Positions 25,061 through 64,000 of a stretch of 64,000 nt of DNA are shown one piece after another; the stretch's first letter is position 1, and every line of letters starts with the position of its first letter. The notes under the pieces were generated by a model that was given only the letters and a program-made list of their open reading frames with translations, ran no database searches and had not been told where the DNA came from. The stretch covers positions 85,889,936 through 85,953,935 of the forward strand of contig OZ023274.1 of the NCBI GenBank assembly GCA_964007475.1. Direction: 5' to 3'. Made by a program: the position numbers and the translations under genes. The stretch is from Hybos culiciformis. Its lineage: Eukaryota > Arthropoda > Insecta > Diptera > Hybotidae.

Positions 25061-25264
25061 GAAGATATGGTATGTCTTTCGTGCACAGCAACAGGAGAAC
25101 GTGTTTGTTTAGCTGCCGAAGGTTTTGGTAATCGTCATTGCTTTCTTGAAAATATTGCCGATAAAAATGTACCACCTGATTTGGCACAATGTGTGTTTGT
25201 CATAGAACAAGCGTTATCAGTACGTGCCTTACAAGAACTGGTTACAGCAGCTGGATCAGAAACT
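25061..25264 (+). CDS. RyR: RyR exon 2: start of the N-terminal domain
   Basis: Residues 1-68. It opens [20 protein letters not shown] and runs through [20 protein letters not shown], the most conserved N-terminal block of RyR (IP3R/RyR N-terminal domain, first beta-trefoil, cytosolic cap). Acceptor TTTCAG, donor ACT|GTAAGC, phase 0 at both ends. Family knowledge says a short exon encoding about 20 residues precedes it. The internal ATG at 25067 should not be taken as the start. Confidence 0.97.
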
Positions 25265-40200: not shown

Positions 40201-43200
40201 TTGTAGATTCTCTAATATTTTTAGTAGACCACCTTTATAAAGTCCTGTAGCCTTGCTTGATAGACTTGAAAACTTATTAATACATATTGTATGTATAGTA
40301 TGTATGTAGTATATATTCCTAATACCGCTTCTAAAATCAATAAAGCGAATATTATTAATTCACTAATTACAAGTGCAGAAATGATATTTTGCTATACACA
40401 AAAACACGATTCACACTATTTGCCCACGCGATAATGAGCAAATCTTAAAAAAATAGAGTTAACTCATCAGTGTAAATAGGACTTATAAATAGAAGTGAAA
40501 AAGAAGTGAAGTTCAAAATTTTTATATTACTTAAGCTTTCAAATTGACACGATTAGGAACATAAATTTCATAATCATATCAAAGGAAACTTAATTATTTG
40601 TAACAATGAGCTTCTAATTATACTTATGAAACAATAATTTTCATTTTTAACCTAAAATTCGTTTACAATATTCTTATAATATACACAAATATCGGATTTG
40701 ATCATAAAAATGGTTCTTGACATTAAAATTAACTTCTTTTTATCCTTAAACGACATCAGTTCTCTATTGTTTGAACCAGGGCTGTGGAGTCGGTCTACAA
40801 AATTACCGACTCCAACTCCGACTCCGACTCTTCATTTTTTTCTTTGGCGACTCCGACTCCGACTCCGACTCCGACTCCTACTTTGACTACTTTGACTCTC
40901 TGTCTGATACCAATATACTATACTTTCTGTACCCGCACCAGCAATTATAAAAAATAGTATTTCCCGAAATTGCCATAAATTTTAATATGAACATAAAATG
41001 GTATTTGCCGTAATTTTTCCAGTAAGCCAAAAATCGTGATAATATATTTTTATTGGATTTCTGTGCCAGACACTTGGTTGTTGCTTTGTTAAATTTAATT
41101 ATAAAAATATAATTATAAAAAAGTTTTATTTAATTTAATAAGTTTTGATCGAGTATACTAAATTTAATAGTTTTGGAGTCGGAGTCGGAGTCGGCTTTAT
41201 TTTGTCGACTCCGACTCCGACTCTTAACAAGCAAAAATTACTACCGACTCCGACTCCGACTCCACGACTCCGACTCCGACTCCGCAGCCCTGGTTTGAAC
41301 GACACTTATTGCTTCGAAAATATAAAAACAAAAACAAAAACGATAGATAGAAACTATTTTACACAAATATAAGATACAATTAGAATTTTACTTTTCCCCA
41401 TTTGTTAATATTATACAATATACATACCTACTTTAAATCGATCAATATTAATAATATAATATATTACAATTTTAACTATGAAAGAAGTAAAACTCTACCA
41501 GGCATGTCAAACTTGTGGTCTTTTCGTTAAAATTCTGCAGCGCGCCAATCCTATAATCTAAATAGGGATTATAGGCCCAGAAAGCAAAAAAAAAGTACCA
41601 ATAAAATAAATGATTTGAAGAATGATAATATAAGGTCCAAAGCGTAGTTGTCGGAAATGGAAAATGCCTTTTTATTTTTACAACAATTTTATTCAATTAT
41701 AGGAAAAATTATTCTACTTTCAGAACATTTTCTTCCAATTAAGCTTAAAAATTTTCAAAATTAAGTGGTTTTAATTTCAAATTAAAGTAGTTTTCTTATA
41801 AATTTGATGAATTTGCAAATCATTGTCCGATTTTTAGGTTGATTTCGAATTTGTTTGAAACGTAATAAGAATTTTTCCTTAATTTAACAGCAAATTTTAT
41901 TAATATGAAAAATTTTTGTTCGTCTCATTATTACGAATATATTTCTATTTAAATTAAATTTTGATATTTTTAATGCAAAAAAAGTTCTGCCTTTATGCCA
42001 AATTTGGTATAAAAAAAACAAGATTTCAAATATTAGGAAATAATTGTAATGATAAAATCTTTGATTCATATCAAAATTTACAAATGGTCTTGCTTGTGAG
42101 TTATGGCTCACCAAATTTTTATTGTTAATATTTTGGCCCAAATAGCATTTTGAGTTTGACACGCCTGTTGTACATCATCGTAATTTTACACACCATTCAT
42201 ACTTATAATGTACCTTTTTACATCCAATATAAACCCAAATCTAACTAAATTAATCTCTTTTTTTTTCTAATATTTTTTTTAATGCACCGCTGACATAATT
42301 ACATAATGCACAACATACTTGGAATATCATTACCATTCCCCAATTACCTTTTTTCTTGTTAAATTTTGCAAAAACTTCCTATATAAATGATATTTATGTT
42401 TAATTACTTCTATGTTATGAATTTTTTTCGACAATTTAACATTATTTATTTTATAAAATTGTATTAATTCAAAAATAAAAAAATAAAATAAAATTAAACT
42501 CTAATTTTGTGTAAATGTTAAATGTTGTTCATTCATTAATATTTGTTATGTTAAAAAAAATGTGTTATCGTAATCCCATCCCAATAAAAAAGTACCCCAT
42601 CCCAACCCCAAACAAATGTAGTTCAATCAGTAGTTCCAAGTGCTTCCAGTGAACCAATTCCAACAATTGATCAACTTTATTCGCCTAAATTTTCATTGGA
42701 AATTGTCCGAGAATTTGTTATGGAAGCTCTTCATGAAGCTGTGGAAGTTAATCAGGTTCATAATCGAGATCCTATTGGATGGTCAAATGAAAACTTATTC
42801 TTGTAAGTATAGTCACATTTTAAATTTAAATCGAATCAAATTGGAATAATAATGTTTTTATTATTTATAAGATATTTTGAATTTCAATTATAAAAATATT
42901 CATCTAAAACTCGATATTCAAAATAATTTTTTTTTTATATGTTTCTTCTGTATGAGGCCGTAAATTCTACGTTTTCCAAAAAAAATTTTTTTTCTTAGTT
43001 ATAGTATATATACATAAAGGTGAAACTAGTGGTCTAGTACAAAATTCACTATGGACAAAATTCAATAGATTTCTTTTTCTTACCTGTAAATAAAATAATT
43101 TTTTTTAATTTAAAGGATTTATGTAAATAATAAACTATCTGTATCCGTATTTTATTGATAATATAACTTTATTTTAAGACCTTTAATTAAGCTAACTGAT

Positions 43201-46200
43201 CGATTGCTATTGGTCGGAGTTATAAAAGATGAGGATGTCAAAAAATTGCTAATAATGGTTGATCCAGAAACTTGGGATGAAACATTCAACAAAGGTACAA
43301 TTTTTAATTTTGCTTGAATCGAATCAGGATTTATTTATTTATATACAAATAAATATTTTAAAATTTTTAGAAGGCAAAGATGAACACAGAAAAGGACTCC
43401 TAACTATGAAAATGGCAGAAGGAGCAAAACTGCAAATGTGTTATCTGCTTCAACATTTATATGATATTCAGTTACGGCATAGAGTTGAAGCAATTATTGC
43501 TTTCTCACATGATTTCGTTGGAGATTTACAATCTGATCAACTGAGAAGATATACGGAAATTAAACAATCTGATCTACCAAGTGCAGTAGCTGCCAAAAAA
43601 ACTAGAGAGTTCCGATGTCCACCAAGAGAGCAAATGAATGTTATATTAAATTTTAAAAATCTTGAAGCCGACGATCAGGAAAACTGCACATGCGGTACAG
43701 AACTACGAGGTTCCTTATATGATTTCCATGATAGTCTAATGAAAAAGGTTTCATTGAATGCATTACAAGAACCTGAATCACCAGACGCTGCGGCCGAAGA
43801 GAAAACTTCTCGAGGGCCTATCACAAAATTATATAATTTTATTGCTGCTGTTAAAGAACTGGAAGAAGGACCCAAAGAAGAACCAGAACCTGAAAAGAAA
43901 ACCCCCGAAGAAGTATTTCGAAAAGTTTTGATCAAAACAATTGTAAGTTGGGCAGAATCATCACAAATTGAGGATCCAAAACTGGTAAGAGAGATGTTTA
44001 GTTTATTAGTTCGACAATATGATACAGTTGGCGAGTTGATCAGAGCTTTAGAGAAATGTTACATCATTAATAGTAAAACTAAGAATGATGTCGCTGAAAT
44101 GTGGGTGGGTCTTAGTCAGATTCGCGCCCTTCTTCCAGTTCAAATGAGTCAGGAAGAAGAAGAACTGATGCGAAAAAGATTATGGAAATTAGTAAATAAT
44201 CATACCTTCTTCCAACATCCAGATTTGATTCGAATTTTACGTGTCCACGAGAACGTTATGAAAGTTATGATAAATACATTGGGAAGACGTGCCCAGGCTC
44301 AGAGTGATGCACCTGCTCAAGGTGAGGAAGGAGCACCTGCAAAAGAAAAAGACACATCTCATGAAATGGTTGTGGCTTGCTGTCGTTTCTTATGTTACTT
44401 TTGTCGAACAAGTCGTCAGAACCAGAAAGCAATGTTTGATCATTTTGATTTTCTATTAGACAACTCAAATATTTTATTATCAAGACCCAGTTTAAGAGGC
44501 TCAACTCCACTAGATGTTGCTTATTCAAGTTTAATGGAAAACACAGAATTGGCACTTGCCCTGCGAGAACACTATTTAGAAAAAATCGCTGTTTACCTAT
44601 CACGTTGTGGATTGCAAAGTAATTCCGAATTAGTTGAAAAAGGTTATCCAGATTTAGGATGGGATCCAGTTGAAGGTGAACGTTATTTGGATTTCCTACG
44701 TTTTTGTGTTTGGGTGAATGGCGAAAGTGTTGATGAAAACGCTAACCTTGTCATTCGTCTTCTTATCCGACGTCCAGAATGTTTGGGACCCGCTCTAAGA
44801 GGAGAAGGAGAAGGTCTTTTCAGGGCAATCGTTGATGCCAATAAAATGTCTGAGCGTATTGCTGACAGACGTAAGTTACAGGATGAAGCTGAAGGTACCA
44901 TTGCCGGATTGAATTTCACACATCCCTTACCAGAAAGTGAGGATGATGAAGATTACATAGATACTGGAGCAGCTATCCTAAATTTCTACTGTACATTAGT
45001 CGATTTATTAGGACGTTGTGCTCCAGATACATCCGTCATTGAACAAGGAAAAAATGAAAGTCTTAGAGCTAGGGCTATCTTGAGATCATTAGTTCCTTTG
45101 GAGGACCTTCAAGGAGTCCTGAGCTTACGTTTTACTTTACTTCAAACGGCTCCTGGCGAAGAAAAGCCAAAATCAGATATGCCTTCAGGTTTAGTTCCAG
45201 GTAATAAGCAAAGTATTGTTCTTTTTCTGGAGCGTGTTTACGGAATTGAAACACAGGATTTGTTTTACAAGTTATTAGAAGAAGCTTTCCTACCAGATTT
45301 GCGTACAGCAACCATGTTAGATAAAAGTGACGGATCAGAAAGTGATATGGCTTTATCAATGAATCGTTATATGGGTAATTCGATATTACCACTTTTAATA
45401 AGTCATTCTAAATTTTACAATGAAGCTGAAAATTATGCAAGCTTATTAGATGCAACTTTACATACAGTTTATCGTTTATCTAAAAATCGGATGCTAACTA
45501 AAGGTCAAAGAGAAGCAGTATCAGATTTCCTGGTTACTCTGACAGGAAGTATGCAGCCTGCCATGTTGTTGAAGCTTTTACGTAAGCTAACAGTTGATGT
45601 TTCAAAACTTTCAGAGTATACTACTGTAGCGTTAAGAGTAAGTACACTTTTTTTAATTTCAAAGTTAAGTATAGGAAATTTATTCTTTCCAGCACCACTT
45701 TTTATCAATTCTTATAAAGTACTAGGTGCTTACACAAAAACTAAATAGGGATTTATAATATACATGAATATACATACACATAAGTTTGATTCAAATAATT
45801 AAAATAATTGCTTGGTTCACTTTATAAAAGAGAAATAATTATAATTTTCACATTTTTATTTCTACACTAAACTTTTAGCTGTTAACACTACATTATGATC
45901 GTTGTGCTAAATATTATGGATCAAGTCAAGGTCAAGGTGTTTATGGAGCTTCATCAGATGAAGAAAAAAGGCTTACAATGATGTTGTTTTCTAATATTTT
46001 CGATTCCCTTAGTAACATGGACTACGATTCGGAGCTTTTCGGTAAAGCATTGCCATGCTTGATTGCAATTGGATGTGCATTGCCCCCGGATTATAGTTTA
46101 ACAAAGAATTCCGATGAAGATTTTTACGGAAGAGCTCCAGGAGATCCAGAACAATCTCAATATAATCCATTACCTATAGACACAACTTCTGTGCAATTAG

Positions 46201-49200
46201 ATAATGATTTGCATCAAATTGTTCAAAAGTTCAGTGAACATTATCATGATGCTTGGGCGAGTCGTAAGCTAGAAGGAGGTTGGGCCCATGGTGAATCTTG
46301 GTCGGATGTTCAGAAATGCCATCCAAGATTGAAACCGTACAATACTCTTAATGATTATGTAATTTACTTAATTTTAATCATAAAAACGAAATTTTAATCA
46401 AACTAAGGTCATTGTTTCAGGAACGTGAAAGATATAAAGAGCCCGTTCGTGAAAGCTTGAAAGCTCTCTTAGCAATAGGATGGACGATCGAACATCAAGA
46501 CATGGATCAACCATTGTCGCATCGTGGCTCAACCAGAAGGCAATCGAAGCCTCAGATTGTACGTATGATTTAGTACTAACTATTATCCCAAAATCGAACT
46601 GTAGCCCAAAATTGGCATTGTGATAAATTATTTGAAATTATTTGGAAATTTTTTAAATTATTCAAAAGTGAAAAGTTTGGAAACTCTTGTTACTTAACAT
46701 TTAATATACCACGTAGTGTTTAAGCAGTACAATATTACATTTGATTTGAAACCATCACAAACATTTAATTCAAGTGGACAATTTGTATACCCTTGCTTCG
46801 CCACAGTAAATGTTTACTAATTTTTTCAGAATATGTCATAACATTGAAACAGTAAAAAAACAGCAAAAAAACAAAAAAAACTGCTCTTTATTAATAGTAT
46901 ATGCTTATGATAGAAGATATGTAGATTAACTGCAGTCAAATTCAAAAAAATAGTTAAAATCAAAAGGCAACAGTTTGAGTCAAACCACAGTTCATTTTAA
47001 TTTCGACATTTTTGTAAATATTATATTCAATCATATTACTAATCATCATTAATGTTATAAATTAATATCTGCACATTTAATTTTCTTCATTTAATATCCT
47101 GAATTCCTATATAATTATTTCCCTCCAAAATATTACTATCCGCATGAAACCTATCCCTCTGTGTTACCCGTTTTCGATTGGGAAAAACTTTTCCTAAAGT
47201 GCAGAATGAATTACAGAGTGACAGCAATGCTTTTAACTACAATCCACATCCAGTAGATATGTCTAATTTGACATTAAGCAGAGAAATGCAAAACATGGCA
47301 GAACGTCTAGCAGAAAATTCTCATGACATTTGGGCCAAAAAGAAAAAAGATGAATTAAATACGTGTGGCGGTGTAGTATCTCCGCAATTAGTTCCATATG
47401 ATCTACTCACTGACAAAGAGAAACGTAAAGACCGTGAGAGATCCCAAGAGTTTTTGAAATACTTACAATACCAAGGATATAAATTGCACAAGTAGGTTAA
47501 AATTAATTTTTATAATGGTCTTAATTAATACAAATTTGAGAATAAAAAAATTAAATTAACTTATAATGTCCGTTTAGAAAATTTCTACTTATTACTTATT
47601 AATTACTTATTAATTTATTTAATTTTAAATTAGTATTTAACATTGTTTCAAGACTTAAGATATATAAGCCTTGATATATATTTTGAATTCGAATATCTTC
47701 CAACAAACATTTTTTTTTTACTCTTTATATAGTTAAGAGGTGCAGCACAAAATACTTGTATTATTTTGTGGTTACACTTCACGATAATATTTGATTTAAA
47801 AATTGTTAGTTAAAATACCTGTACTTAAACGGCCATCACTGCTTAAGATTATTATGAAAAGAAAAGAACGTCCCAAATACTATAATAAATCAAGTTAAAA
47901 AAATTATTTAATAACTAATGAAAAAAATTTACAGACCTTCAAAAGGTGGTACAACTGAAGCTGAGGGTGGAACAACTCAAGCACCACCAGAATTACGGTT
48001 TTCATATCAGCTGCTAGAAAAACTTATCGCTTATTTGGATAGAGCAACAATTAATATGAAATTGTTGAAACCATCAGCAACATTCAGTAGAAGAACTTCA
48101 TTCAAAACTGCTTCCCGAGACATTAAATTCTTTTCAAAGGTCGTTCTACCTTTAATGGAAAAATATTTTTCTACACATCGTAACTACTTTATTGCTGTTG
48201 CTACTGCCACGAATAATGTTGGTGCAGCTTCTTTAAAAGAGAAGGAAATGGTTGCGGCACTATTCTGTAAACTAGCATCTTTGCTACGTAGTCGCTTAGC
48301 TGCTTTTGGTCCTGACATTCGAATCACCGTAAGATGTTTACAAGTTTTAGTGAAAGGTATTGATGCCAAATCTTTAGTCAAAAATTGTCCTGAATTTATT
48401 CGAACATCAATGCTAACATTTTTCAATAATACTGCCGATGACTTAATGAATACTATAGGAAATTTACAGGATGGAAAATACAGTCATTTACGTGGCACTC
48501 ATCTTAAAACTTCAACTTCTTTAGGATATGTTAATATGGTAATTCTACCAGTTTTAACGGCAATGTTTGACCATTTAGCATCCTGTGATTATGGTAGTGA
48601 TCTTTTACGTAAGTTGTCTCAAATCTTTTATTTCATATTTAATTCATATATATACGTACATACAATACACATGACATTACAGACATACATTTGTAGTTAT
48701 TATTATATTTGTAGTTTTTATTATATAGTTATAACACTAATCAGACTAGTTTATTAAAGATTAATAATAATTCATCAAAAATTTTTTAGTTGATGAAATT
48801 CAAGTAGCATCCTATAAAATTTTGGCCGCTTTATATCAACTAGGTGTTGACCATAGTTTACATCATGAACGAAAATATCTAAAAACTGAGATCGAACGAC
48901 ACAAGCCGGTAAATATTTTAAATAAATTTCATATTATTTTGCAAATCTCAATATATTTTTTTAATACTAGAATTTGGGATCATGTTTGGGAGCTTTCAGT
49001 GCTTGTTTCCCAGTTGCTTACCTTGAACCACATCTCAATAAGCATAATCAGTTTTCACTTTTAAATCGCATCGCTGATCATTCGCTAGAAGCTCAAGATA
49101 TAATGGTTAAAATGGAGACAGCTATGCCAAACTTAGAAACTATTTTGGGTGAAGTTGATGCTTTCACCGAATCTGATAAAACTTATGTAGAAGGATCCCA

Positions 49201-52200
49201 CATAATTGATGTAATTCTACCTTTACTTTGTTCTTATTTACCATTTTGGTGGGCACAAGGACCAGATAATGTTAGTCCGACAAGTGGGAACCATGTAACT
49301 ATGGTTACCGCTGACCATATGAATGGTCTGCTAAAGAATGTTTTAAAAATGATTAAGAAAAATATTGGTAATGATAATGCAGCATGGATGACGAGAATTG
49401 CAGCATACACTCAACAAATTATCATAAACAGTTCCGAAGAATTATTAGTGGATCCATTCCTCCCATTGGCAGAACGAGTAAAGAAACGGACCGAGAACAT
49501 GTCCCACAAAGAAGAAAGTATGCGAGGTTTTTTGAAATCAGCCACCGATGATACTTCCCAAGTTGAAGCACAATTACAAGAAGACTGGAATCTTTTAGTT
49601 CGTGATATTTATTCATTCTATCCATTACTTATAAAATATGTTGATCTTCAACGCAGTCATTGGCTAAAAGATAATGTTCCCGAAGCAGAGGAACTTTATA
49701 ATTATATAGCTGAAATATTTAATATTTGGTCCAAATCTCAATATTTCCTCAAAGAGGAACAGAATTTCATTTCGGCCAATGAAATTGATAATATGGCTCT
49801 AATAATGCCAACCGCAACACGGCGATCCGCTAACATCTCAGAAGGTGCACCAGCAGCTGGTGGTAAAGTTAAAAAGAAAAAGAAAAATCGTGATAAAAAG
49901 CGTGATAAGGATAAAGAAATTCAAGCTAGCTTAATGGTGGCATGTCTTAAACGTCTACTACCTGTAGGTTTAAATTTATTTGCTGGCCGTGAGCAAGAAT
50001 TAGTTCAGCACTGCAAAGATCGTTATCTTAAGAAAATGCCAGAATATGATGTTATTGAATTTGCTAGAAACCAATTAACACTGCCAGATAAATTAGATCC
50101 ATCTGACGAAATGTCGTGGCAACATTATTTATATTCCAAATTGGGTAAGAAAGAAGAAATAATAGAAGAAGCTTTAGTTGAAAAGAGTCCAAATACTAAT
50201 GAGAAAAAAGATAAAACTGAAGAAAAAGTTGATCGAATTGTAGCAATGGCAAAAGTATTATTCGGTTTGCACATGGTAAGGGTCTAGCATGTAATAATGA
50301 TTTTTATTATTTATAGTTAATTAGATATTAGATTTATTTCATATTTTTTTATGAGTTTTTATAAAGTTTAACTAGACTAGACTTTCTAAATCACTACTCA
50401 GCAACTTAATGTTTAAACTCAGACATTCTTCAATTTTTAATTTCAATGTTGTGCAGGATAAGATTTTCTTGAAGTTGGAGCTATAGTTAAGCGTTGAAAA
50501 TAAATTCCAAAACTAAAATTGAAATTATTTTAAATTCAATAATAAATTTATCAACAAGTATATGAAAATGAAGTTAACTTTTATTACTTACGGCTCTTAC
50601 CGTTGAAACAGCTCTTACCATTATAATTTCTCGTGTAAGTATGCTAGTACCGCAGCTCTTATCGCATCTCCTTGATAATAGAAAATTAAATTTTTTTTAT
50701 CTATATTTTGACATAATGATCCTGTGATTTTGTTAGTTTTATGTAAAAGATATTTATCTTATTTACTTTCTTTAAATTAGAATAAAAGTAATTTACCATA
50801 ATTACAGTTTTATGAAAAAAATTAATTTACGTGTCTGGAATTATTATATTATAATAAAAAGTTAGTTAATTCTTTTTTTTAATTTTTTGGTTTTATTTTT
50901 TTGCCACTTTAGATTGATCATCCACAACACCAAAGTAGAAATGTTTATAAAAGTTGTGTCTCTATTCAAAGAAAACGTGCTGTAATTGCTTGTTTCAGAC
51001 AAGTGTCTCTTCACTCACTTCCAAGGTTTTAATTTTTTACTATTATTATTTTGTTTCAATTAATTCAATTAATTATAATTTCCAATTAATTTGGATGGCT
51101 TAATTTATTTATTTTAATACAATTCATAACCATTTAACCAACATCAATACGTGTATTAATATTTATCCTACTAATCAATTTAATATGTCTTTTTTCATAT
51201 CACTAATAAGGCCACACGTCCAAAACAAAAAAGAAGTAACTGGAGTCATGTTCTAACAATGGCTAGAAAGCAAGCCGCTATGAATTGCTTAAGAGCTAAA
51301 CACCTTTATAGATTCAGCAGGTTATTAATCAAATACCTAAATAATCATGAAAACTATAAAGTGGTGCTGTTTCTATAAAACTTAAAATAAAATTAATATT
51401 GATTAAGTTTATTTGCGAAAAAATTTCTCAACGCAATTAAATTAATTATAGAAAACAAAAAAAGAATGCTACAACGCCACTTTAGTTTTTATAATATTGT
51501 TCTAACAATTTTAAGCTTTCTCCTTAATAACTTTACCGAAATAATATTCAGAAATAAATAATCTAAAATAATTTATTTTCTTTCTTAAAAAATAATTAAA
51601 AAAAAAAAAAAATTATAGACATCGCGCTTGTAACATCTTTGCCCGTTCCTACTATGAATTATGGTTGCAAGAAGAAAATGTTGGACAAGAAATTATGATT
51701 GAGGATTTAACTCAATCATTTGAAGATTCTGAAAAATCTAAGAAAGATGAAGAAGAAGTTGAAGGTAAACCAGATCCGCTAACACAATTGGTAACAACTT
51801 TTTGTCGTGGCGCCATGACAGAAAGAAGTGGAGCATTACAAGAAGATCCTTTGTATATGTCATATGCTCAAATTGCTGCCAAGTCGTGTGGTGAAGAAGA
51901 GGAAGAGGGCGGAGATGAAGAAGGCGGCGGTGGCGAGGAAGGTGAAAGTAATATTCATGTAAGCATAAAAAATAAGAAATATATTTACAAATAATATATT
52001 TTGTTTTGTTAAGATTTAATTTTAATGTTGTAGGACCAAATCCTATCAATATAAAAAATTAATCTTTTAAAACATTTTTTTTTTTGTATATAACTCAAAC
52101 TAATTTTAATAAGCTTAGCTTAAATTCTATTTAACACATAATATATATGAACTACTACATAATATTTTTAATAAATATTTTTATCTTATTTTATTGTGCT

Positions 52201-55200
52201 AATAATTAAGAAAAATATAAGTATGGAAAAATTAATGGTAAGAGGTTTTTTGATTGCCAAAAAAAATGTAATTTAAATATTTTTTTGATATTAAAAACTG
52301 TGTTAAAATTTTAATTTTATAAATTTATAGCTAATAATTTTGTTTCTGTAAGTAAATAATTTTATGTTTTGATATTTTAATTTATTTTTTTTGAATTTTT
52401 ATTTTGTATATAAAATGATCTAGTATCTAAAAATTATTTCAAATACAAGTATCGATTAATCGAAGTTCCTTTTTCGATATGGTCGATTGATTTCCTTAAT
52501 AATTTTACCATCGTAAAATAAAATTTATTATATAATTCAAGACTGTCATTTAGGGATCAAATTATTTACAAATGAAAATTTAAAATTTCCTAATCATTTT
52601 TTAACTATACAGACTATTTTCTGTCTTAATTTCTTATAATTTTTTTTTTTTTATACGAAAAAAAAATCAAAATCAAAAAAATTATTAATGTTTATTTGAA
52701 ACATTCAATTTTCGTTTAGGAACAAGAAATGGAAAAACAAAAATTACTCTTCCATCAAGCTCGTTTATCAAATCGTGGAGTCGCTGAAATGGTTTTACTT
52801 CATATATCGGCATCAAAAGGTGTTCCTTCGGAAATGGTTATGACCACATTAAATTTAGGTATTTCTATATTACGTGGTGGTAATATTGAAATCCAACATG
52901 GTATGTTAAATCATTTAAAAGAAAAAAAAGATGTTGGATTCTTTACATCAATTGCTGGTTTAATGAATTCGTGCAGTGTTTTGGATTTAGATGCATTCGA
53001 ACGTAACACAAAAGCAGAAGGTTAGATTAATAATTGTTGAATATATTTAATGTTTTAAAGTGATTTGTATTATATCTAAACCATCCAAATTATATCCTAT
53101 TTCCAGAAAATCTTTATTCCTTTGTATGTCCTTATGTTGTTGCAACGATCATTAATCGAAAAACAAAAAAAAGTATTTTTTTTTTTTTATATGTTATTTA
53201 TTCTATTTATTTAGTTAGTATGACTATTGGTTGAATTTTCAAAATTTTCTTATCTTTTAACTACATATATATGTAATATGTATATCTGTGATTGCAACTA
53301 TTTTATTCGTTAGGAAAAATTAATAAATTCTTAACGAATATGGTTAACTAAATTTTCAAAGTGACGCAACTATTTATAAAAAGAATTTAGTGTGCTTGAT
53401 TGAAATAATTTTTTTTAATTAAAAAACCGAAATTAAATTTTTTTTATATAGAAATTATTTGTTTTGAACTGATCGGAAACTTTAATTTTTTGAATCAAGA
53501 GTTGCAATTGTACACTATAAAATAATAAAATAAGAAATCTCTAGTTTTAAATTTAAAATAATTTAATAAATTTTCTCAGTTGAAAATCAAACATTTCAAT
53601 TAAAAAAATATTCAAAGCAAGAGCTCGGAGAGAAAAAAATTCAATTTCATTTAACAGAAGAAAATATAGTAAATTTTCACATATTCCACTATGTTATGAA
53701 AAAATCGAACAAATATCGGCAATTAAAAAAATTCTTTGTTGAATCCAAATCAAGGACAGAAATTCTTTTTTTGTAGTAAGGCGTGAATAATATTTTTTAC
53801 CATCCATTTATTAACTTTTAGCCCATTAATATTCCGAATATATGACACTATTAATAAATATTTAGCTCTATGTATTTCAGAATCTATAAACTAGAGGCTT
53901 TTGATGAGATGAATTAGGTATAGAAAACAACATTGCGATAAATTTTTTTAATAATATGTAATTGAATTCGAAACAATATTTTTCAGTATTTAATTTTTTT
54001 TTCACCAAACTTATTTTACAATTTCTCATTCTTTACAAAATTCTACTTTTAATTTTAATGACGTATATGTAAGTTTCCGGAGATGCAGCAATGAATGAAA
54101 GACAAAAATGTGTATAGAATATGCAGATAATTTCGTCAATTTAATTAGGAAAGTGGAAAATTTCTGCAAAAGGAATTCAAAATTAAAAAACTTAAGAAAA
54201 GCTTTAGAAATTTAGAATATTGGAATTTTGTCTCCAATTATTTCACTATTATTTTAATTGTAACTACACTGTATTGTAATGGTCTATTTTAAAGTAAAAA
54301 AAAAAAAAAGGCTTTATGTAAAATTTGTAAAATACTAACATTTTTGGTATCGTACACTTAACCGATTAATGTAAGTAGAAGTCATTTATTTTTCCAATTT
54401 TTCATGAAAATCCTAACTTATTATTTTATTTTATGTTTATTTTTTCATGTTATCTACAACGACCTAAACACATTTTATACAAAAATAATACATTTCCTTC
54501 TCAAAATTATAACATTTCCATAATCAAAATTCAAACATAAAACACAATCAAAACAAATAAATATTTATTTAAAAATTATAAACTTTTTCTATTGGCATGA
54601 ATATATGAATGTTAAATAAAAATGAAATGTATATTTTTATTTGTTTTACAATTTGTGTTAATGTTTCTGTAATTAACTTTTAATCATTTCCAAAAATTTC
54701 CTCCTTTTCCTTGAACAAAACCCATGGTTTGATTTAATACTTTTTTTTGGAAAACTTGAAAAACAAGAATTCATTCCTGCGGTCCTAATAGGTTTAGGCG
54801 TTGGATCAGAAGGTGCTGCCGGTGAGAAGAATATGCACGATGCCGAGTTCACATGTGCTTTATTCCGTTTTATTCAATTGACTTGTGAAGGTCACAATTT
54901 AGGTAAGAAATAGTTTATAAGTTAAGAAAAAAACTTTCTTTTTTTTTTTTCATAAAATTTAAGAACTCCAGATTTATAACAAACACCTAAGTATAAAAAA
55001 AAACATTTTTTAAATTGAGAATGAAAAATTTATCTGAAGATTTGTGTTAAATATTTTTAAAGACCTCAGAAGATATAAACGATATAATTTTTCTCCCCGG
55101 TGTCAAGTTTTTTTAAAAACTGGGTTATTCCATACATAAACATAAATCACTATGAAGTGTAACAGCTATACTATACTGTTTTTAATTTATCTTTTGCATC

Positions 55201-58200
55201 TTAGTTAAATTTGATCTCAAAGTGAAAATCCCCCAAAAATAATTAAATTAAATTATAAATAAAACGAGTATTTTTCTTTAGAATGGCAAAATTATTTGAG
55301 AACACAAGCTGGTAATACAACAACTGTAAACGTAGTAATTTGTACAGTCGATTATTTGTTGCGATTACAAGAATCAATTATGGATTTCTATTGGCATTAT
55401 TCAAGCAAGGTTTGATTAATTTAAACTTAATACCTATACTAAGAAACTTTTATTATCAAATTTATTTTTTTCTTTACAAAAATTACATTTATAGGAAATT
55501 ATTGATCCAGCTGGAAAAGCAAATTTCTTCAAAGCTATTGGTGTGGCAAGTCAGGTATTCAACACCTTGACTGAAGTAATTCAAGGTCCTTGTATTCAAA
55601 ATCAGCAAGCATTAGCACATTCGAGATTGTGGGATGCTGTTGGAGGTTTTTTGTTTTTATTCTCACACATGCAAGAAAAACTCTCAAAACATGCAAGCCA
55701 AGTCGACTTACTAAAGGAATTATTAAATCTACAAAAAGACATGATTACAATGATGTTATCAATGCTGGAAGGCAATATTGTAAATGGTAAGAATCCATAA
55801 GTATCTAACATATATCAAAAAACGATCGAATCTAGGCCAACCGAAGGGCTCCAGGCAATGGCTTGAGTTGCAAGTCTTTTATACCGTCTCTGTAATTTAA
55901 TCATTTATCAAAATTTACAACACTCTATTTTAGGTACGATCGGTAAGCAGATGGTAGACACGCTGGTTGAATCGGCTGGAAATGTAGAACTAATTCTCAA
56001 ATATTTCGATCAATTTTTGAAATTGAAAGTTTTAATTGACTCTCCAGGTTTCCAAGAAATTGATCCTAATAACGAAGGCTGGGTCACACCGAAAGATTTC
56101 CGAGATAAAATGGAACAGCAAAAGACTTATACAATGTAAGAATTTGCTCAAATAATCATAATTATACAATCAATCACACTATTTTTTTTTTCTTACAGAG
56201 AAGAGATGGATTTCCTCTTAGCCTGCTGTGAACGCAATCATGAAGGTAAAATTGATTATGCAACATTTGTGGATCAATTCCATGAGCCCTCTAAAGAAAT
56301 CGGTTTTAATTTGGCTGTTCTGTTAACAAATTTAAGTGAACATATGCCTAGTGAGCCAAGGCTAGCACGTTTCTTAGAAACAGCAACTTCTGTATTGGAT
56401 TATTTCGCTCCATTTTTAGGGCGTATTGAAATTTTAGGTAGTTCAAAAAGAATTGAACGTGTCTATTTTGAAATCAAAGAATCAAACATTGAACAATGGG
56501 AAAAACCTCAGATTAAAGAATCTAAACGGGCATTCTTCTACTCAATAGTTACAGAGGGCGACAAAGAGAAATTAGAAGCATTCGTCAATTTTTGTGAAGA
56601 TGCTATTTTTGAAATGCAACATGCTTCTGCTTTAATGTCAACAGATGAAGATGGTGGAAATGTGAAACGTGACGCAACTTATAGTTCTTATATAAGTGAA
56701 GAAGAGGAAGAACGTGCCGCCAAAGATCCGATTCGCCGAACTATTAAAGGAGTCAAAGATGGGCTTAAGTACTTTATTGTAATGTTGAGTCCAGCCAATT
56801 TAAAACATCAAATTAACGTTATGCAAACTAAAACTTTTCCTGAGTTAATAATTGGATTTTTCAAAATGATATTTTATGCATTTTATTATACTGGTTACGG
56901 AAATGCAATGGTTGTGAAATATTTGTTGGGTATTTTATTAAATTTAATGCGAGGACCCGCACAGGAAGAAGCTGAAGAAGTTGTTATTGAAGAAGAAAAA
57001 GTAATGACCAGAGCACTGCCAGCTCTACCACAAGAAGAACCTCCTGGAACCGTCCAAGCATTTGGTATGGATATCAGTAAAGAAGAAAATGGTCAATATA
57101 AGGTGGCAATACATGAATCACCAGGATTGAGCCCAACATCTTCTGTTGAAGAAACTGGCGAAAGCTCTCCTGAAGAAGGCATTGCCGCACAGGCGATGGA
57201 TGGAACCGTTTTAGAAGGAATAGAGGGTCAAGAACAACCTATGACTTTGGTAGATTTACTTGGCGGTGATGTTGCCAAACGTCAAGCCCAAGAGCGGCAA
57301 GAAGCTCAGAAGGTTCAAGAAGCTGCAATGGCATCCATCGAAGCCGAAGCAAAACGTTCTTCAACAACAACGACGGAACCTTCAGCTGTTAGTCAAATTG
57401 ACTTTTCTGGCTATTCGAAAAAAGCAGTTAGCTTCTTAGCTCGTAACTTCTACACTCTTAAATGGATTGCGTTAATTCTAGCTTTTAGCATCAATTTCAT
57501 GCTTCTCTTCTATAAAGTTACAACGCTTGGAGAAGACGAAGATGCTGATGATGAGGCCGACATTATTTTAGGTGGCTCTGGATCAGGTGCTGGGTTGGGC
57601 GGTTCAGGATTCGGTTCTGGTGAAGGATCTGGTGAAGGTGAAGAAGATGAAGAATCTCAAGAAACGGTAGAAGTTGGCGAAGACTACTTTTATATAGAAC
57701 ACGCTTTAAGGATATCAGCAATTCTGCACAGTATAGCTTCATTAGCAATGTTAATAGCATATTATCATCTAAAAGTTCCATTGGCTATATTCAAAAGAGA
57801 AAAGGAAATTGCCCGACGACTTGAGTTTGATGGATTATTTATTGCGGAACAACCGGAAGATGATGACTTTAAATCACATTGGGACAAACTGGTAATATCA
57901 GCGAAATCCTTTCCGGTAAACTATTGGGATAAATTTGTTAAAAAAAAAGTACGTCAAAAATATAGTGAAACATATGATTTCGATTCCATATCAAACCTTT
58001 TGGGTATGGAAAAAAGTGCATTTACTGCTCACGAAGAAGATTCAGAGAGTGGTGGCATAGTTAAATTTATTTTGAACATTGATTGGAGATATCAAATTTG
58101 GAAAGCTGGAGTTACCATTACTGATAATGCTTTTCTTTATTCACTTTGGTATTTTATATTTTCCGTTATGGGAAATTTCAACAATTTTTTCTTTGCTGCT

Positions 58201-58899
58201 CATTTACTAGATGTTGCTGTTGGTTTCAAAACTCTACGAACAATTTTACAATCCGTTACACATAATGGAAAACAATTGGTTTTGACGGTAATGTTACTGA
58301 CCATCATTGTATACATTTACACTGTTATTGCTTTCAACTTTTTCCGTAAATTCTACGTTCAAGAAGAAGACGACGAAGTCGATAAAAAATGTCATGATAT
58401 GGGGACATGCTTTATTTTCCACTTATATAAAGGTGTTAGAGCTGGTGGAGGTATAGGTGACGAAATCGGTGATCCTGTAGGTGATGAATATGAAACATAC
58501 CGCATTATTTTCGATATAACATTTTTCTTTTTTGTTATTGTTATCTTATTGGCCATCATTCAAGGTTTGATCATTGACGCATTTGGTGAATTGCGTGATC
58601 AACTTGAAAGCGTTAAAGACAATATGGAATCAACGTGCTTCATATGCGGTATAACCAAAGACTATCTGGATAAAGTTCCACATGGGTTTGATACTCATGT
58701 TATTCAAGAGCACAATTTAGCAAATTATATGTTCTTTATGATGCATTTGATTAACAAACCTGATACAGAATATACGGGTCAAGAAACTTATGTTTGGAAT
58801 ATGTATCAGCAGAGAAGTTGGGACTTTTTCCCTGTGGGTGATTGTTTCCGTAAACAATATGAAGAAGAATTAGGTTTAGGAGGTGGTGGAGGCGGTTAA
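25061..58899 (+). CDS. RyR: Ryanodine receptor gene, nearly complete coding region (spliced)
   Basis: This is the whole RyR coding region visible here, as 32 joined exons with one member of each alternative pair. RyR is a homotetrameric Ca2+-release channel of the endo/sarcoplasmic reticulum, needed for excitation-contraction coupling. Every junction is GT-AG and phase-consistent, and the exons total 15,303 nt (5,100 codons plus stop), the usual insect RyR size less a short N-terminal exon. The domain order is complete: N-terminal IP3R/RyR, MIR, RIH, SPRY1, RyR repeats 1-2, SPRY2, SPRY3, RIH, RyR repeats 3-4, calmodulin site, RIH-associated, EF-hands, pore. No start codon is assigned because the first visible exon opens in frame with Glu-Asp after an acceptor. 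The only uncertain junction is the acceptor of exon 17. No frameshift or stop was seen, so the gene looks intact. Confidence 0.97.
25265..30192 (+). other. RyR intron 2 (4.9 kb)
   Basis: This is the largest intron inside the visible gene. It contains A/T homopolymers and a decayed SINE copy near 28621-28700 followed by an A-rich tract. I see no alternative exon in it. Confidence 0.85.
28621..28700 (+). repeat. Decayed tRNA-derived SINE copy
   Basis: It resembles the SINE pair near 20300: ATAATTTCAATACTATAGCT at the start, a degenerate B box (GGTTCGATACTC) and the tail CTTAAGAAAAATAAAAATAG. A roughly 100-bp A-rich tract follows, consistent with an expanded SINE tail. Confidence 0.55.
30193..30270 (+). 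CDS. RyR: RyR exon 3: N-terminal beta-trefoil
   Basis: Residues 69-94, [20 protein letters not shown] then HHNSDM. It continues the IP3R/RyR N-terminal domain that forms the ring around the channel's four-fold axis. Acceptor CTGACAG, donor ATG|GTAAAA, phase 0 at both ends; 78 nt, so skipping would keep frame. Confidence 0.96.
30332..30720 (+). CDS. RyR: RyR exon 4: N-terminal domain into MIR
   Basis: Residues 95-224. Conserved blocks are [40 protein letters not shown] and the MIR-domain start with [20 protein letters not shown]. In vertebrate RyRs this N-terminal region is a hot spot for disease mutations. Only 61 bp separate it from exon 3. Donor AAA|GTAAAA; the exon ends after two bases of an Asn codon. 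Confidence 0.97.
30783..30957 (+). CDS. RyR: RyR exon 5: MIR domain
   Basis: Residues 224-282. It contains [38 protein letters not shown] and [16 protein letters not shown], the repeated MIR beta-trefoil pattern. The first base completes Asn from exon 4. Donor TTG|GTAATT, phase 0. Confidence 0.96.
31020..31369 (+). CDS. RyR: RyR exon 6: MIR domain into first RIH domain
   Basis: Residues 283-399. Blocks include [40 protein letters not shown] (end of MIR) and [17 protein letters not shown], which begins the helical RIH solenoid. It ends with two bases of a codon at donor ACA|GTAAGA. Confidence 0.97.
31429..31553 (+). CDS. RyR: RyR exon 7: first RIH domain
   Basis: Residues 399-441, [20 protein letters not shown] then [20 protein letters not shown], part of the RIH helical solenoid. 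Acceptor TTTCTAG, donor ATGG|GTAAGA. The exon starts in phase 2 and ends in phase 1. Confidence 0.95.
31832..32537 (+). CDS. RyR: RyR exon 8: RIH domain and start of SPRY1
   Basis: Residues 441-676. The RIH core includes [40 protein letters not shown] and [24 protein letters not shown]1 begins near residue 632 ([15 protein letters not shown], then YLKWYFEIT and [10 protein letters not shown]). SPRY domains are beta-sandwich protein-interaction modules in the cytosolic assembly. Donor GCGG|GTATAA, phase 2. Confidence 0.98.
32599..33919 (+). CDS. RyR: RyR exon 9: SPRY1, RyR repeats 1 and 2, start of SPRY2
   Basis: Residues 676-1116. It finishes SPRY1 ([42 protein letters not shown]). Two RyR repeats follow, near 837-925 ([20 protein letters not shown]) and 950-1043 ([20 protein letters not shown]). 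It ends in SPRY2 ([27 protein letters not shown]). The paired repeats each show the Glu-Asn-x-His-x-x-Trp-Ala core. Donor AAT|GTAAGT, phase 0, leads into a choice of two alternative exons. Confidence 0.98.
34077..34176 (+). CDS. RyR: RyR exon 10a: mutually exclusive exon, SPRY2
   Basis: Residues 1117-1150, [20 protein letters not shown] then [13 protein letters not shown]. It is 100 nt, phase 0 in and phase 1 out, the same as exon 10b at 34643. Both encode the SPRY2 strand ending in GD(I)xG-x-F-x-D and T-I-S; 14 of 34 residues agree. Joined to exon 11 it reads [13 protein letters not shown], matching the vertebrate block HTMMFTLNGE. Acceptor ACATACAG, strong donor GTAAGA. Use of 10a or 10b is likely regulated by tissue or stage. 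Confidence 0.94.
34643..34742 (+). CDS. RyR: RyR exon 10b: mutually exclusive exon, SPRY2
   Basis: Alternative to exon 10a: [20 protein letters not shown] then [13 protein letters not shown]. It is also 100 nt with the same phases. It sits 466 bp downstream of 10a and 1.5 kb before exon 11. The segment SFGKQ resembles the vertebrate SPRY2 GRSWQ-type segment more than 10a does, so 10b may be the ancestral form; that is inference. Acceptor TTTATAG, strong donor GTAAGA. Confidence 0.94.
34743..36245 (+). other. RyR intron 10 (1.5 kb)
   Basis: No third copy of the SPRY2 exon and no mobile element was recognised. It lies next to the mutually exclusive pair and may hold splicing control sequences, but I cannot identify any. 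Confidence 0.7.
36246..36352 (+). CDS. RyR: RyR exon 11: SPRY2
   Basis: Residues 1150-1185, [20 protein letters not shown] then [15 protein letters not shown]. It continues SPRY2 after either alternative exon; the first two bases complete Ser with the last base of 10a or 10b. Acceptor TTCAAG is purine-rich at -3 but gives the only conserved frame. Donor GGA|GTAAGT, phase 0. Confidence 0.95.
36497..36594 (+). CDS. RyR: RyR exon 12: end of SPRY2
   Basis: Residues 1186-1218, [20 protein letters not shown] then [13 protein letters not shown], matching the conserved [15 protein letters not shown] block that closes SPRY2. Acceptor TGCTAG, donor TGT|GTAAGT, phase 2. Confidence 0.96.
36684..36908 (+). 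CDS. RyR: RyR exon 13: SPRY2-SPRY3 linker
   Basis: Residues 1218-1293. Blocks are [40 protein letters not shown] and [16 protein letters not shown]. This is the known linker between SPRY2 and SPRY3. Donor CGA|GTAAGA, phase 2. Confidence 0.95.
37055..37524 (+). CDS. RyR: RyR exon 14: basic linker
   Basis: Residues 1293-1450. It begins [20 protein letters not shown] and carries [40 protein letters not shown], and [25 protein letters not shown] and KRSTS fit basophilic kinase sites (R/K-x-x-S or R-x-S), so phosphorylation here is plausible but inferred. The basic, Ser-rich character is typical of a flexible linker. Donor GTTG|GTAAGT, phase 1. Confidence 0.95.
37525..38818 (+). other. RyR intron 14 (1.3 kb)
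   Basis: I see no exon, repeat family or gene. An 80-codon open frame near 38418 has neither suitable splice sites nor RyR similarity and is taken as noise. Confidence 0.75.
38819..38880 (+). CDS. RyR: RyR exon 15: small linker exon
   Basis: Residues 1450-1470, [20 protein letters not shown] then T. It is 62 nt, too short to stand out as an open frame, and was located by the phase requirement between exons 14 and 16. Acceptor TTCACAG, donor ACC|GTAAGG, phase 0. Only 80 bp separate it from exon 16. Confidence 0.9.
38961..40126 (+). CDS. RyR: RyR exon 16: SPRY3 and following helices
   Basis: Residues 1471-1859. After a Pro-rich start ([12 protein letters not shown]) comes SPRY3, about 1500-1660: [80 protein letters not shown]. 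Helical sequence follows ([20 protein letters not shown]). It ends LKMTEIA at donor ATAGC|GTAAGT, phase 2. Confidence 0.97.
40777..41292. mobile_element. hAT-type MITE with GACTCC arrays and 8-bp target duplication
   Basis: The 516-bp element begins CAGGGCTGTGGAGTCGG. Its right end, reverse-complemented, reads CAGGGCTGCGGAGTCGG, 16 of 17 identical. The perfect 8-bp duplication GTTTGAAC flanks it (40769-40776 and 41293-41300), diagnostic of hAT insertion. Inside are arrays of the hexamer GACTCC or its complement near both ends and near 41155-41270. Repeating Thr-Pro and Gly-Val open frames here are by-products of the hexamer. No transposase. Confidence 0.92.
41499..42167. mobile_element. Probable hAT-type MITE
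   Basis: About 669 bp. The left end is CAGGCATGTCAAACT and the right end, reverse-complemented, is CAGGCGTGTCAAACT, 14 of 15 identical, of the hAT-like CAG-xx-TG-x-CAAACT type. Flanks (AACTCTAC left, TTGTACAT right) do not give a clean 8-bp duplication, so the call rests on the inverted repeats. It lies about 200 bp from the element ending at 41292. No transposase. Confidence 0.7.
42650..42802 (+). CDS. RyR: RyR exon 17: start of the central helical domain (acceptor uncertain)
   Basis: Residues 1859-1910: [50 protein letters not shown]. The 3' end and body are secure. Exon 16 ends in phase 2, so an acceptor at CTTCCAG (start 42650) or at TTCCAAG (start 42641, three extra residues) keeps frame. 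The tempting ATGTAG acceptor (start 42622) gives a stop after ten codons unless an unseen microexon changes the phase. I chose 42650. Donor CTT|GTAAGT. Confidence 0.85.
43179..43294 (+). CDS. RyR: RyR exon 18
   Basis: Residues 1910-1949: [20 protein letters not shown] then [18 protein letters not shown], the conserved helical stretch before the [10 protein letters not shown] block. Acceptor ATTTTAAG; donor AAAG|GTACAA, phase 1. It is short and lacks its own long open frame. Confidence 0.93.
43371..45637 (+). CDS. RyR: RyR exon 19: central helical solenoid with second RIH domain
   Basis: Residues 1949-2704; at 2,267 nt it is the second largest exon. It starts [20 protein letters not shown] and includes [15 protein letters not shown], an acidic stretch ([24 protein letters not shown], near 43855-43915), and RIH-type helices ([40 protein letters not shown]). 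Later blocks are [20 protein letters not shown] and [20 protein letters not shown]. The central solenoid passes cytosolic signals to the pore. Donor AGA|GTAAGT, phase 0. Confidence 0.98.
45879..46358 (+). CDS. RyR: RyR exon 20: solenoid and RyR repeat 3
   Basis: Residues 2705-2864. It opens [14 protein letters not shown] and continues [20 protein letters not shown] and [20 protein letters not shown]. RyR repeat 3 starts near residue 2799 ([15 protein letters not shown]) with core [20 protein letters not shown]. In vertebrates repeats 3-4 hold the main PKA/CaMKII phosphorylation hot spot. Donor TAT|GTAATT, phase 0. Confidence 0.97.
46421..46558 (+). CDS. RyR: RyR exon 21: end of repeat 3 and phosphorylation-loop region
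   Basis: Residues 2865-2910: [54 protein letters not shown] between repeats 3 and 4 has the R-x-S and R-R-x-S basophilic kinase pattern at the place where vertebrate RyRs carry their regulatory phosphoserine; a functional match is inferred. 138 nt, phase 0 at both ends, so it could be skipped in frame. Confidence 0.95.
46559..47204 (+). other. RyR intron 21 (0.65 kb)
   Basis: No gene or mobile element. Family knowledge suggests some insects carry optional exons between repeats 3 and 4, but I see no conserved open segment with good splice sites here. Confidence 0.7.
47205..47491 (+). CDS. RyR: RyR exon 22: RyR repeat 4
   Basis: Residues 2911-3006. It begins [20 protein letters not shown] and carries the repeat core [17 protein letters not shown], then [20 protein letters not shown] and [13 protein letters not shown]. 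The acceptor GTGCAG at 47204 is the in-frame phase-0 choice; CTAAAG six bases upstream would break the frame. Donor CAA|GTAGGT is slightly off consensus, phase 2. Confidence 0.95.
47935..48608 (+). CDS. RyR: RyR exon 23: helical solenoid
   Basis: Residues 3006-3231. After a Gly/Thr-rich start ([18 protein letters not shown]) come [60 protein letters not shown] and [16 protein letters not shown] sequence. The vertebrate equivalent is part of the bridging solenoid. Acceptor TTTACAG, donor TTAC|GTAAGT, phase 1. The open frame beyond the donor is intronic. Confidence 0.96.
48790..48908 (+). CDS. RyR: RyR exon 24: helical solenoid
   Basis: Residues 3231-3270: [39 protein letters not shown]. The RHKP end joins the next exon's [20 protein letters not shown]. 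Acceptor TTTTTTAG, donor CCG|GTAAAT, phase 0. Confidence 0.95.
48971..50275 (+). CDS. RyR: RyR exon 25: solenoid with Lys-rich segment
   Basis: Residues 3271-3705. Blocks: [60 protein letters not shown], then the Lys-rich [20 protein letters not shown] and [20 protein letters not shown], matching the vertebrate segment ahead of the calmodulin site. It ends [11 protein letters not shown] at donor ATG|GTAAGG, phase 0, feeding either exon 26a or 26b. Confidence 0.97.
50276..50912 (+). other. RyR intron 25 (0.64 kb), upstream of the second alternative pair
   Basis: No gene. Around 50587-50655 the motif CGGCTCTTACC or CAGCTCTTA recurs three times (50591, 50609, 50655) within about 70 bp. Lying just before an alternative exon pair, these could be splicing-control motifs; that is speculative. 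Confidence 0.5.
50913..51025 (+). CDS. RyR: RyR exon 26a: calmodulin-binding segment, version with Phe anchor
   Basis: Residues 3706-3743: [38 protein letters not shown]. It aligns with the mammalian RyR1 calmodulin site (about 3614-3643), keeping the basic QRKRAV, the reactive Cys (RyR1 C3635) and the following Phe. At the RyR1 W3620 position it has Tyr. Acceptor CACTTTAG; weak donor AAG|GTTTTA. 113 nt, phase 0 in and phase 2 out. Mutually exclusive with 51211-51320. Confidence 0.95.
51211..51320 (+). CDS. RyR: RyR exon 26b: alternative calmodulin-binding segment, version with Trp anchor
   Basis: It encodes [20 protein letters not shown] then [17 protein letters not shown]: 110 nt, phase 0 in and phase 2 out, like exon 26a, and joined to exon 27 it reads straight into HRACNIF. 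Counting back from the shared Cys, its Trp falls exactly 15 residues upstream, as in mammalian RyR1 (W3620 and C3635); the residue after Cys is Leu instead of Phe. Acceptor CACTAATAAG, weak donor CAG|GTTATT. No stop, and codon use is like the neighbours. The phase match and homology make a real alternative exon much more likely than intron noise. Confidence 0.87.
51619..51958 (+). CDS. RyR: RyR exon 27: acidic stretch after the calmodulin site
   Basis: Residues 3743-3856: [80 protein letters not shown] and [17 protein letters not shown] and the MAYA-type block match vertebrate RyR. The Glu/Gly-rich tail is a flexible acidic loop. Acceptor AATTATAG after an A-run with almost no pyrimidine tract; donor CAT|GTAAGC, phase 0. 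Confidence 0.96.
51959..52719 (+). other. RyR intron 27 (0.76 kb)
   Basis: No gene or repeat family recognised. Confidence 0.75.
52720..53020 (+). CDS. RyR: RyR exon 28: core solenoid
   Basis: Residues 3857-3957: [76 protein letters not shown]. This is one of the most conserved RyR segments, the core solenoid near the channel's Ca2+ activation site. Acceptor CGTTTAG; donor AAG|GTTAGA is off consensus, phase 1. Confidence 0.97.
53021..54791 (+). other. RyR intron 28 (1.8 kb)
   Basis: I see no exon, gene or mobile element. In mammals a short alternatively spliced segment lies near here, but no equivalent is visible. Confidence 0.7.
54792..54902 (+). CDS. RyR: RyR exon 29: RIH-associated domain
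   Basis: Residues 3957-3994: [20 protein letters not shown] then [16 protein letters not shown], opening the RIH-associated domain (LFRFLQLLCEGHN in vertebrates). Acceptor CTAATAG with a mixed tract, donor TTAG|GTAAGA, phase 1. It is 111 nt and too short to form its own open-frame signal. Confidence 0.94.
55282..55409 (+). CDS. RyR: RyR exon 30: RIH-associated domain
   Basis: Residues 3994-4036: [20 protein letters not shown] then [22 protein letters not shown], nearly invariant between insects and vertebrates. Acceptor TTCTTTAG, donor AAG|GTTTGA (weak), phase 0. Confidence 0.96.
55495..55786 (+). CDS. RyR: RyR exon 31: RIH-associated domain and core solenoid
   Basis: Residues 4037-4134: [73 protein letters not shown]. 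It matches the vertebrate [20 protein letters not shown] block. The core solenoid supplies acidic residues to the activating Ca2+ site. Donor AATG|GTAAGA, phase 1. Confidence 0.97.
55934..56135 (+). CDS. RyR: RyR exon 32: core solenoid and first EF-hand
   Basis: Residues 4134-4201: [40 protein letters not shown], then the EF-hand-like loop [12 protein letters not shown] and [12 protein letters not shown]. The loop has Asp at position 1 and Gly at 6, but Asp rather than Glu at 12, so affinity is hard to predict. Donor AAT|GTAAGA, phase 2. Confidence 0.97.
56199..58899 (+). CDS. RyR: RyR exon 33: second EF-hand, membrane domain, pore and C-terminus
   Basis: Residues 4201-5100 in one uninterrupted exon. 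In order: second EF-hand ([18 protein letters not shown]), core solenoid end ([20 protein letters not shown]), [11 protein letters not shown], an auxiliary helix ([14 protein letters not shown]), an acidic/Pro cytosolic loop, S1 ([18 protein letters not shown]), a Gly/Ser/Glu-rich loop, S2 ([20 protein letters not shown]), S3 ([16 protein letters not shown]), S4 with the S4-S5 linker ([11 protein letters not shown]), S5 ([19 protein letters not shown]), the pore filter GGGIGDE (58444-58464), S6 ([20 protein letters not shown]) and the Cys/His zinc site (CFICG, then HGFDTH). The tail is GLGGGGGG then TAA. Confidence 0.99.
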
Positions 58900-63502: not shown

Positions 63503-64000
63503 CTATAATGTATCATATCTATTTCCTGGTAATTCACCATTATCACCAATTTCATCAAAAATAATTTCATTAAATATTATTTCTTCATTCCCACTACCGT
63601 TCTCTTCGGTTATAACTGCAGATCCCAATAAATTGACATCCATTATAGTTTGTTTTGTTGTTATGCCATTAGTTGTTTCAGATTTTACATACTGGTTCAC
63701 AATTATTGAACTATTCAAATGTTTCTCTTTTTGCATATGTTTAAGAAGTGATTGTTTTCTTGTGAAACCTAGATTACAAGTAAAGCATTCATATGGTTTG
63801 CGATCATTATGGATAAGCCGGTGTGTATTTTTGTTTGATAGTGAAAAAAATGCTTTACCACAAACCTCGCAAACAAATGATTTGGTACCAGAATGTGTTT
63901 TCAAATGTTTTTTATAATGTTCAGGATAAATAAAATCTGCTGGACATAATTTGCATTTAATAGGTCTTTGATTTTTATGAACACTAAGATGATAATCAAG
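63503..64000 (-). CDS. C2H2 zinc-finger protein, 3' end (cut by the window edge)
   Basis: The frame stays open from the window edge at 64000 down to the TAG at 63503-63505, so this is a partial gene whose start lies to the right. It shows the end of one finger (LDYHLSVH) and three complete C2H2 fingers: CKLC...HLKTH, CEVCGKAF...HRLIH and CFTCNLGF...HMQKEKH. All have 12 residues between the second Cys and first His; the last has a five-residue His spacing. Linkers (KNQRPIK, SGTKSFV, NDRKPYE) are TGEKP-like but degenerate. After the fingers comes an acidic tail (ENGSGNEEIIFNEIIFDEIG) ending NRYDTL. It is probably a nuclear DNA-binding regulator; no orthologue can be named. It is convergent with RyR. 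Confidence 0.9.
   Translation of the reverse strand, partial: LDYHLSVHKNQRPIKCKLCPADFIYPEHYKKHLKTHSGTKSFVCEVCGKAFFSLSNKNTHRLIHNDRKPYECFTCNLGFTRKQSLLKHMQKEKHLNSSIIVNQYVKSETTNGITTKQTIMDVNLLGSAVITEENGSGNEEIIFNEIIFDEIGDNGELPGNRYDTL

Follow-up and report, generated by a model that had tools for sequence, protein, structure and literature searches.

The ryanodine receptor (RyR) gene in the window, a 64,000-nucleotide stretch of Hybos culiciformis DNA, raises the question of whether two neighbouring exons offer alternative versions of the calmodulin-binding segment, and what the choice between them would change in the channel. An exon-chain model of the gene encoded 5,166 amino acids over 25.07–58.90 kb and contained several very long exons. 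Five long exons were tested against Pfam. Four of them gave RyR, SPRY, RYDR_Jsol, RIH, RR_TM4-6 and Ion_trans domains, and the remaining one, exon 25, gave no Pfam family on its own. According to the available part of a comparative study, Diptera have the fewest RyR introns (PMC6026295). The gene also contains a mutually exclusive exon pair in SPRY2. Its two exons are equal in length, enter in phase 0 and leave in phase 1, and a transcript with both or neither runs into a stop. The coordinates of all these features are collected in Table 1.

Two other stretches of the window were noted. A simple-repeat-like stretch at 40810–41293, reading TPTPTP in one frame, lies between modelled exons and misled the gene model. 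At 63506–63943, a minus-strand open frame has, by eye, C2H2 zinc-finger-like spacing (CEVCGKAF...H) and probably belongs to a neighbouring gene.

Table 1. Positions of the RyR gene and of the exons discussed in the text (numbering of the window; exon numbers follow the preliminary description)
Feature	Positions	Strand	Remarks
Ryanodine receptor gene	25067..58899 (approximate coding extent)	+	Draft exon-chain model, some exons certainly wrong
SPRY2 mutually exclusive pair, first exon	34077..34176	+	100 nt
SPRY2 mutually exclusive pair, second exon	34643..34742	+	100 nt
Exon 25	48971..50275	+	Ends in FGLHM, phase 0
Exon 26a, alternative, RyR1-like calmodulin segment	50913..51025	+	37-residue peptide; RyR1 match
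Exon 26b, alternative, divergent calmodulin segment	51211..51320	+	36-residue peptide; RyR1 match
Exon 27	51619..51958	+	First base completes an Arg codon

Exons 26a and 26b form a frame-enforced pair

The borders of the two exons were read at base level. The exon 25 donor is ATG/GTAAGG at 50275 (the slash marks the splice site). Exon 26a lies between the acceptor CTTTAG/ATTG and the donor AAG/GTTTTA, exon 26b lies between AATAAG/GCCA and CAG/GTTATT, and exon 27 follows the acceptor TTATAG/ACAT at 51619. The introns across exons 25-26a-26b-27 are 637, 185 and 298 nt long. With 113 nt (37 codons plus 2 nt) in 26a and 110 nt (36 codons plus 2 nt) in 26b, both exons have an entry phase of 0 and an exit phase of 2, and either one links GLHM to RHRACN. 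The coordinates, borders, phases and GLHM and HRACN joins given in the preliminary description were all confirmed.

With these splice sites, the spliced frames 25-26a-27 and 25-26b-27 are both open. If both exons are skipped (25-27), exon 27 runs into a stop after a few codons; if both are included (25-26a-26b-27), the stop lies within 26b. Given these sites, single inclusion is therefore the sole full-length reading. The two exons are tandem and homologous and share their entry and exit phases, as is the case for mutually exclusive pairs. The SPRY2 pair, with the same frame logic in the same gene, also counts for the exclusive-pair reading of 26a and 26b.

The gene finder misplaced the donors of both exons. 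It used other sites to chain shortened pieces of 26a and 26b (50913–51002, 51211–51235, then 51672), with the frame staying open. Because conserved residues were dropped, HRACN and the end of 26a among them, we took this chain to be an artefact. In terms of the model, other, less plausible splice sites could join parts of both exons in frame. The mutually exclusive reading is well supported by the frame logic of the sites listed above, together with the homology of both copies to the calmodulin region of RyR1. As far as the sequence can tell, 26a and 26b are a real, open and frame-enforced exclusive exon pair, which the preliminary description had read rightly.

Both exons are homologous to the calmodulin region of RyR1

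The exon peptides with their flanks were compared with PDB sequences using HMMER. For 26a, the best stretch scored 62.9 bits (chain 9pwo, residues 3589–3677), with a best E value of 7.1e-17; in PDB chains numbered 3593–3681 the score was 62.0 bits. For 26b, the best stretch scored 43.0 bits (residues 3593–3681), with a best E value of 1.4e-10. Both peptides matched RyR1, RyR2 and RyR3 chains over the calmodulin region, and the last residues of exon 25 aligned with the part of RyR1 that precedes the calmodulin segment. With flanks included, both exons are thus homologous to RyR1 3614–3643 (CaMBD2), and the proposed alignment with the mammalian RyR1 calmodulin site was borne out. Exon 26a also matched PDB entries for isolated RyR1 and RyR2 calmodulin-binding peptides, with E values from 0.013 to 0.36 (2bcx, 0.013; 6y4o, 0.02). 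No isolated calmodulin-binding peptide was matched by 26b at E 1 in the PDB sequence search, indicating that much of the 26b score rests on the flanks.

The exon peptides alone were then scored against a 36-residue RyR1 segment. The scores were 88 for 26a and 55 for 26b. None of 5000 shuffles reached either score; for 26b this was narrow, the best shuffle scoring 54. We also scanned both strands of the window for cassettes of 90–140 nt bounded by AG and GT, open in phase 0 and leaving in phase 2. Among the 331 such cassettes, the 26a and 26b loci ranked at the top: 26a was followed by a shorter version of itself and by 26b, and next came an unrelated locus at 37.

Overall, 26a is the closer of the two to RyR1, with 16 of 35 aligned residues identical, against 10 of 29 for 26b. 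Between 26a and 26b, 9 of 32 aligned residues are identical, and 3 of 5000 shuffles scored as well. Such a degree of similarity suggests that the duplication is old. A six-frame search (open stretches of at least 12 residues) of the three introns that separate exons 25 to 27 revealed no third copy, the best score being 26. Two scans, covering viral and prokaryote contigs, turned up no relative. The codon-usage score of 26b was 9.2, a value that many antisense stretches also reached, and 26a fell under the cut-off of 8.

Calmodulin anchors and charge of the two versions

In the register of the HMMER alignment, the places of RyR1 W3620, C3635 and F3636 are taken by Tyr, Cys and Phe in 26a and by Trp, Cys and Leu in 26b. 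Each exon has one of the two hydrophobic anchors exactly and a hydrophobic or aromatic replacement for the other. The Cys is common to both, and its neighbours differ (CFR vs CLR). The anchors around the shared Cys are those claimed earlier, and the trade of Trp against Phe stands as it was described. The description is incomplete at one more residue: the position matching RyR2 L3591 carries Leu in 26b but Val in 26a. Counting the three residues mutagenised in RyR2 (W3587, L3591 and F3603), 26b keeps two and 26a one.

A change in the basic charge pattern had also been proposed. The change is found in the placement of basic residues, with Lys and Arg numbering 7 in 26a, 10 in 26b and 9 in RyR1 over the whole peptides. 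It is not found in the net charge of the 24-residue core, which is +6 in both exons and +8 in RyR1.

The hydrophobic anchor in calmodulin targets can be Leu and, less often, Tyr. A graded change is therefore likelier than a loss. In the accessible parts of two papers on the mammalian channels, Ca2+-calmodulin touches W3620 of RyR1 with its C-lobe and F3636 with its N-lobe (PMC9168041), and the RyR2 triple mutant W3587A/L3591D/F3603A loses calmodulin inhibition, which L3591D alone loses at diastolic and keeps at systolic Ca2+ (PMC4122402).

Splice signals and the means of exclusion

Donors were scored with generic, home-made weights. The set of 33 comprised 30 model donors, six doubtful model rows having been dropped, and three corrected ones. 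On these weights the 26a donor (51023–51031) had the lowest score of the 33, in a comparison that is tilted against 26a since the model itself favours strong donors. The 26b donor was 13th lowest, within the range of the other exons. A weak 26a donor is consistent with a regulated exon and proves nothing.

Three means of enforcing the choice were considered and rejected. RNA pairing between introns was one of them: among the three introns, no pairing beyond that of shuffled sequences was found (z values 0.47, 0.88 and -1.62; 60 shuffles each). Minor-spliceosome incompatibility was another, every border being GT-AG when judged by eye. The third was steric exclusion. An intron of 185 nt seems long enough for ordinary splicing, and the one between 26a and 26b looks adequate in this respect, so frame plus decay, or regulators, would be likelier to enforce exclusivity.

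Proposed function and alternatives

We consider it probable that this tandem-duplicated exclusive pair encodes two versions of the CaMBD2 equivalent, that both are spliced into mRNA, and that the seating of calmodulin on the channel is tuned by which exon is chosen. The two exons would be used in different tissues or stages. The 26b version keeps the Trp, which in RyR1 meets the C-lobe, and also the Leu that follows, with Leu replacing the N-lobe Phe. The 26a version has Tyr and Val, but keeps the Phe and the adjoining basic-hydrophobic run. Both versions would be expected to bind Ca2+-calmodulin, differing in affinity and in the balance between its lobes, and neither would be dead. The different Ca2+/calmodulin regulation foreseen in the preliminary description is a plausible prediction, and one already proposed in general form. 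In the part of a Drosophila muscle study at hand, lowered calmodulin gave a phenotype like that of dRyR overexpression (PMC13171102), a result that agrees with control of an insect RyR by calmodulin. Against this explanation we counted the lowest donor score of 26a, the weak codon-usage support for both exons, the lack of an isolated-peptide match for 26b, and the misplaced donors in the gene model. The 2021 review cited next, and the M. persicae result and cDNA papers described further below, also weigh against it.

The splice switch could be real and have its main effect elsewhere. The segment may pack against the channel or carry a reactive Cys, in which case gating or redox sensing would be changed directly. 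The Cys is kept in both exons while its neighbours change, and a 2021 review, in the portion available, states that a direct effect of calmodulin on insect RyR was not demonstrated (PMC8301844). However, the changed positions include calmodulin contacts that are known in mammals from the accessible text of PMC9168041 and PMC4122402, and we think such a direct effect unlikely to be the main one. Alternatively, 26b could be a duplicate that has decayed and dropped out of splicing. Its low identity to 26a, its weak codon-usage score and its donor, without a +3 purine and a +5 G, would agree with decay. Yet the correct phase of 26b stays free of stops for 110 nt in DNA with a G+C content of 25.6%, its Trp, Leu and Cys and a number of basic residues are retained in register with RyR1, and its donor ranks among those of other exons. 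We regard decay as very improbable. Slightest of all is the chance that the region mainly sets the amount of channel, with skipping or including both exons giving frameshifted mRNA that is degraded. Both outcomes do meet stops soon past the junction, but this is expected wherever the exons of an exclusive pair have lengths not divisible by three, the SPRY2 pair here being an example.

Within the preferred reading, two versions of the segment that tune calmodulin on the channel, a switch between lobes is a tentative possibility that we rather doubt. Exon 26b would then hold calmodulin mainly by the C-lobe, its N-lobe anchor being weakened, and 26a would keep the N-lobe anchor. Splicing would tune the sign or the Ca2+ range of control, for which vertebrates use separate genes. 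A natural swap of known contact residues would be a ready-made test of lobe-specific calmodulin control. For modellers, the pair means that the calmodulin site of an insect RyR can come in two versions.

Relation to known RyR exons

The preliminary description was uncertain whether such a pair had been described in insects. It has been, as a prediction. In the available part of their paper, Troczka et al. (2015) predicted a second mutually exclusive pair, besides SPRY2, in Ceratitis capitata, Musca domestica and Apis mellifera; it spans M. persicae residues 3720–3756, over a calmodulin site, and they proposed that it may regulate calmodulin sensitivity (PMC4309888). Its likeness to 26a and 26b lies in the gene, the place, the two-exon choice and the proposed consequence. 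The stretch has 37 residues in M. persicae numbering, as many as the whole codons of 26a. The published pair comes from alignments of computationally predicted isoforms, and it is likened to ours by place, not by residue identity. The same part of that paper reports that an alternative exon at the calmodulin site was not found in M. persicae, and it does not spell out anchor residues or an anchor trade (PMC4309888). The accessible text of Troczka et al. (2018) describes the introns flanking the calmodulin site as the second most conserved pair, and the site as apparently alternatively spliced in some species (PMC6026295). Exons 26a and 26b are most likely a further case of this described feature and not new in kind. 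What is new is the residue-level reading of the calmodulin contacts kept by each exon.

The available portions of cDNA papers on B. dorsalis, O. furnacalis, G. molesta, T. castaneum, D. citri and C. medinalis report other splice sites and no calmodulin-site pair, and those of PMC7644089 (C. elegans) and PMC9815114 contain nothing on the site. The accessible part of PMC13171102 describes Drosophila exons 22 (isoforms A–G) and 23 (isoforms H–J) as a complementary alternative pair. These may be the equivalents of 26a and 26b, and we treat them as a lead.

The CaMBD2 of mammalian RyR1 and RyR2 is homologous to the 26a/26b segment, with the register of anchors and Cys kept. We know of no splice swap at this site in the mammalian channels. 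The SPRY2 exons a and b of insect RyRs share the gene and the splicing logic with 26a and 26b and lie in another domain. They are present in cDNA of several insects and, in the part of the survey available, in 21 of 26 species (PMC6026295).
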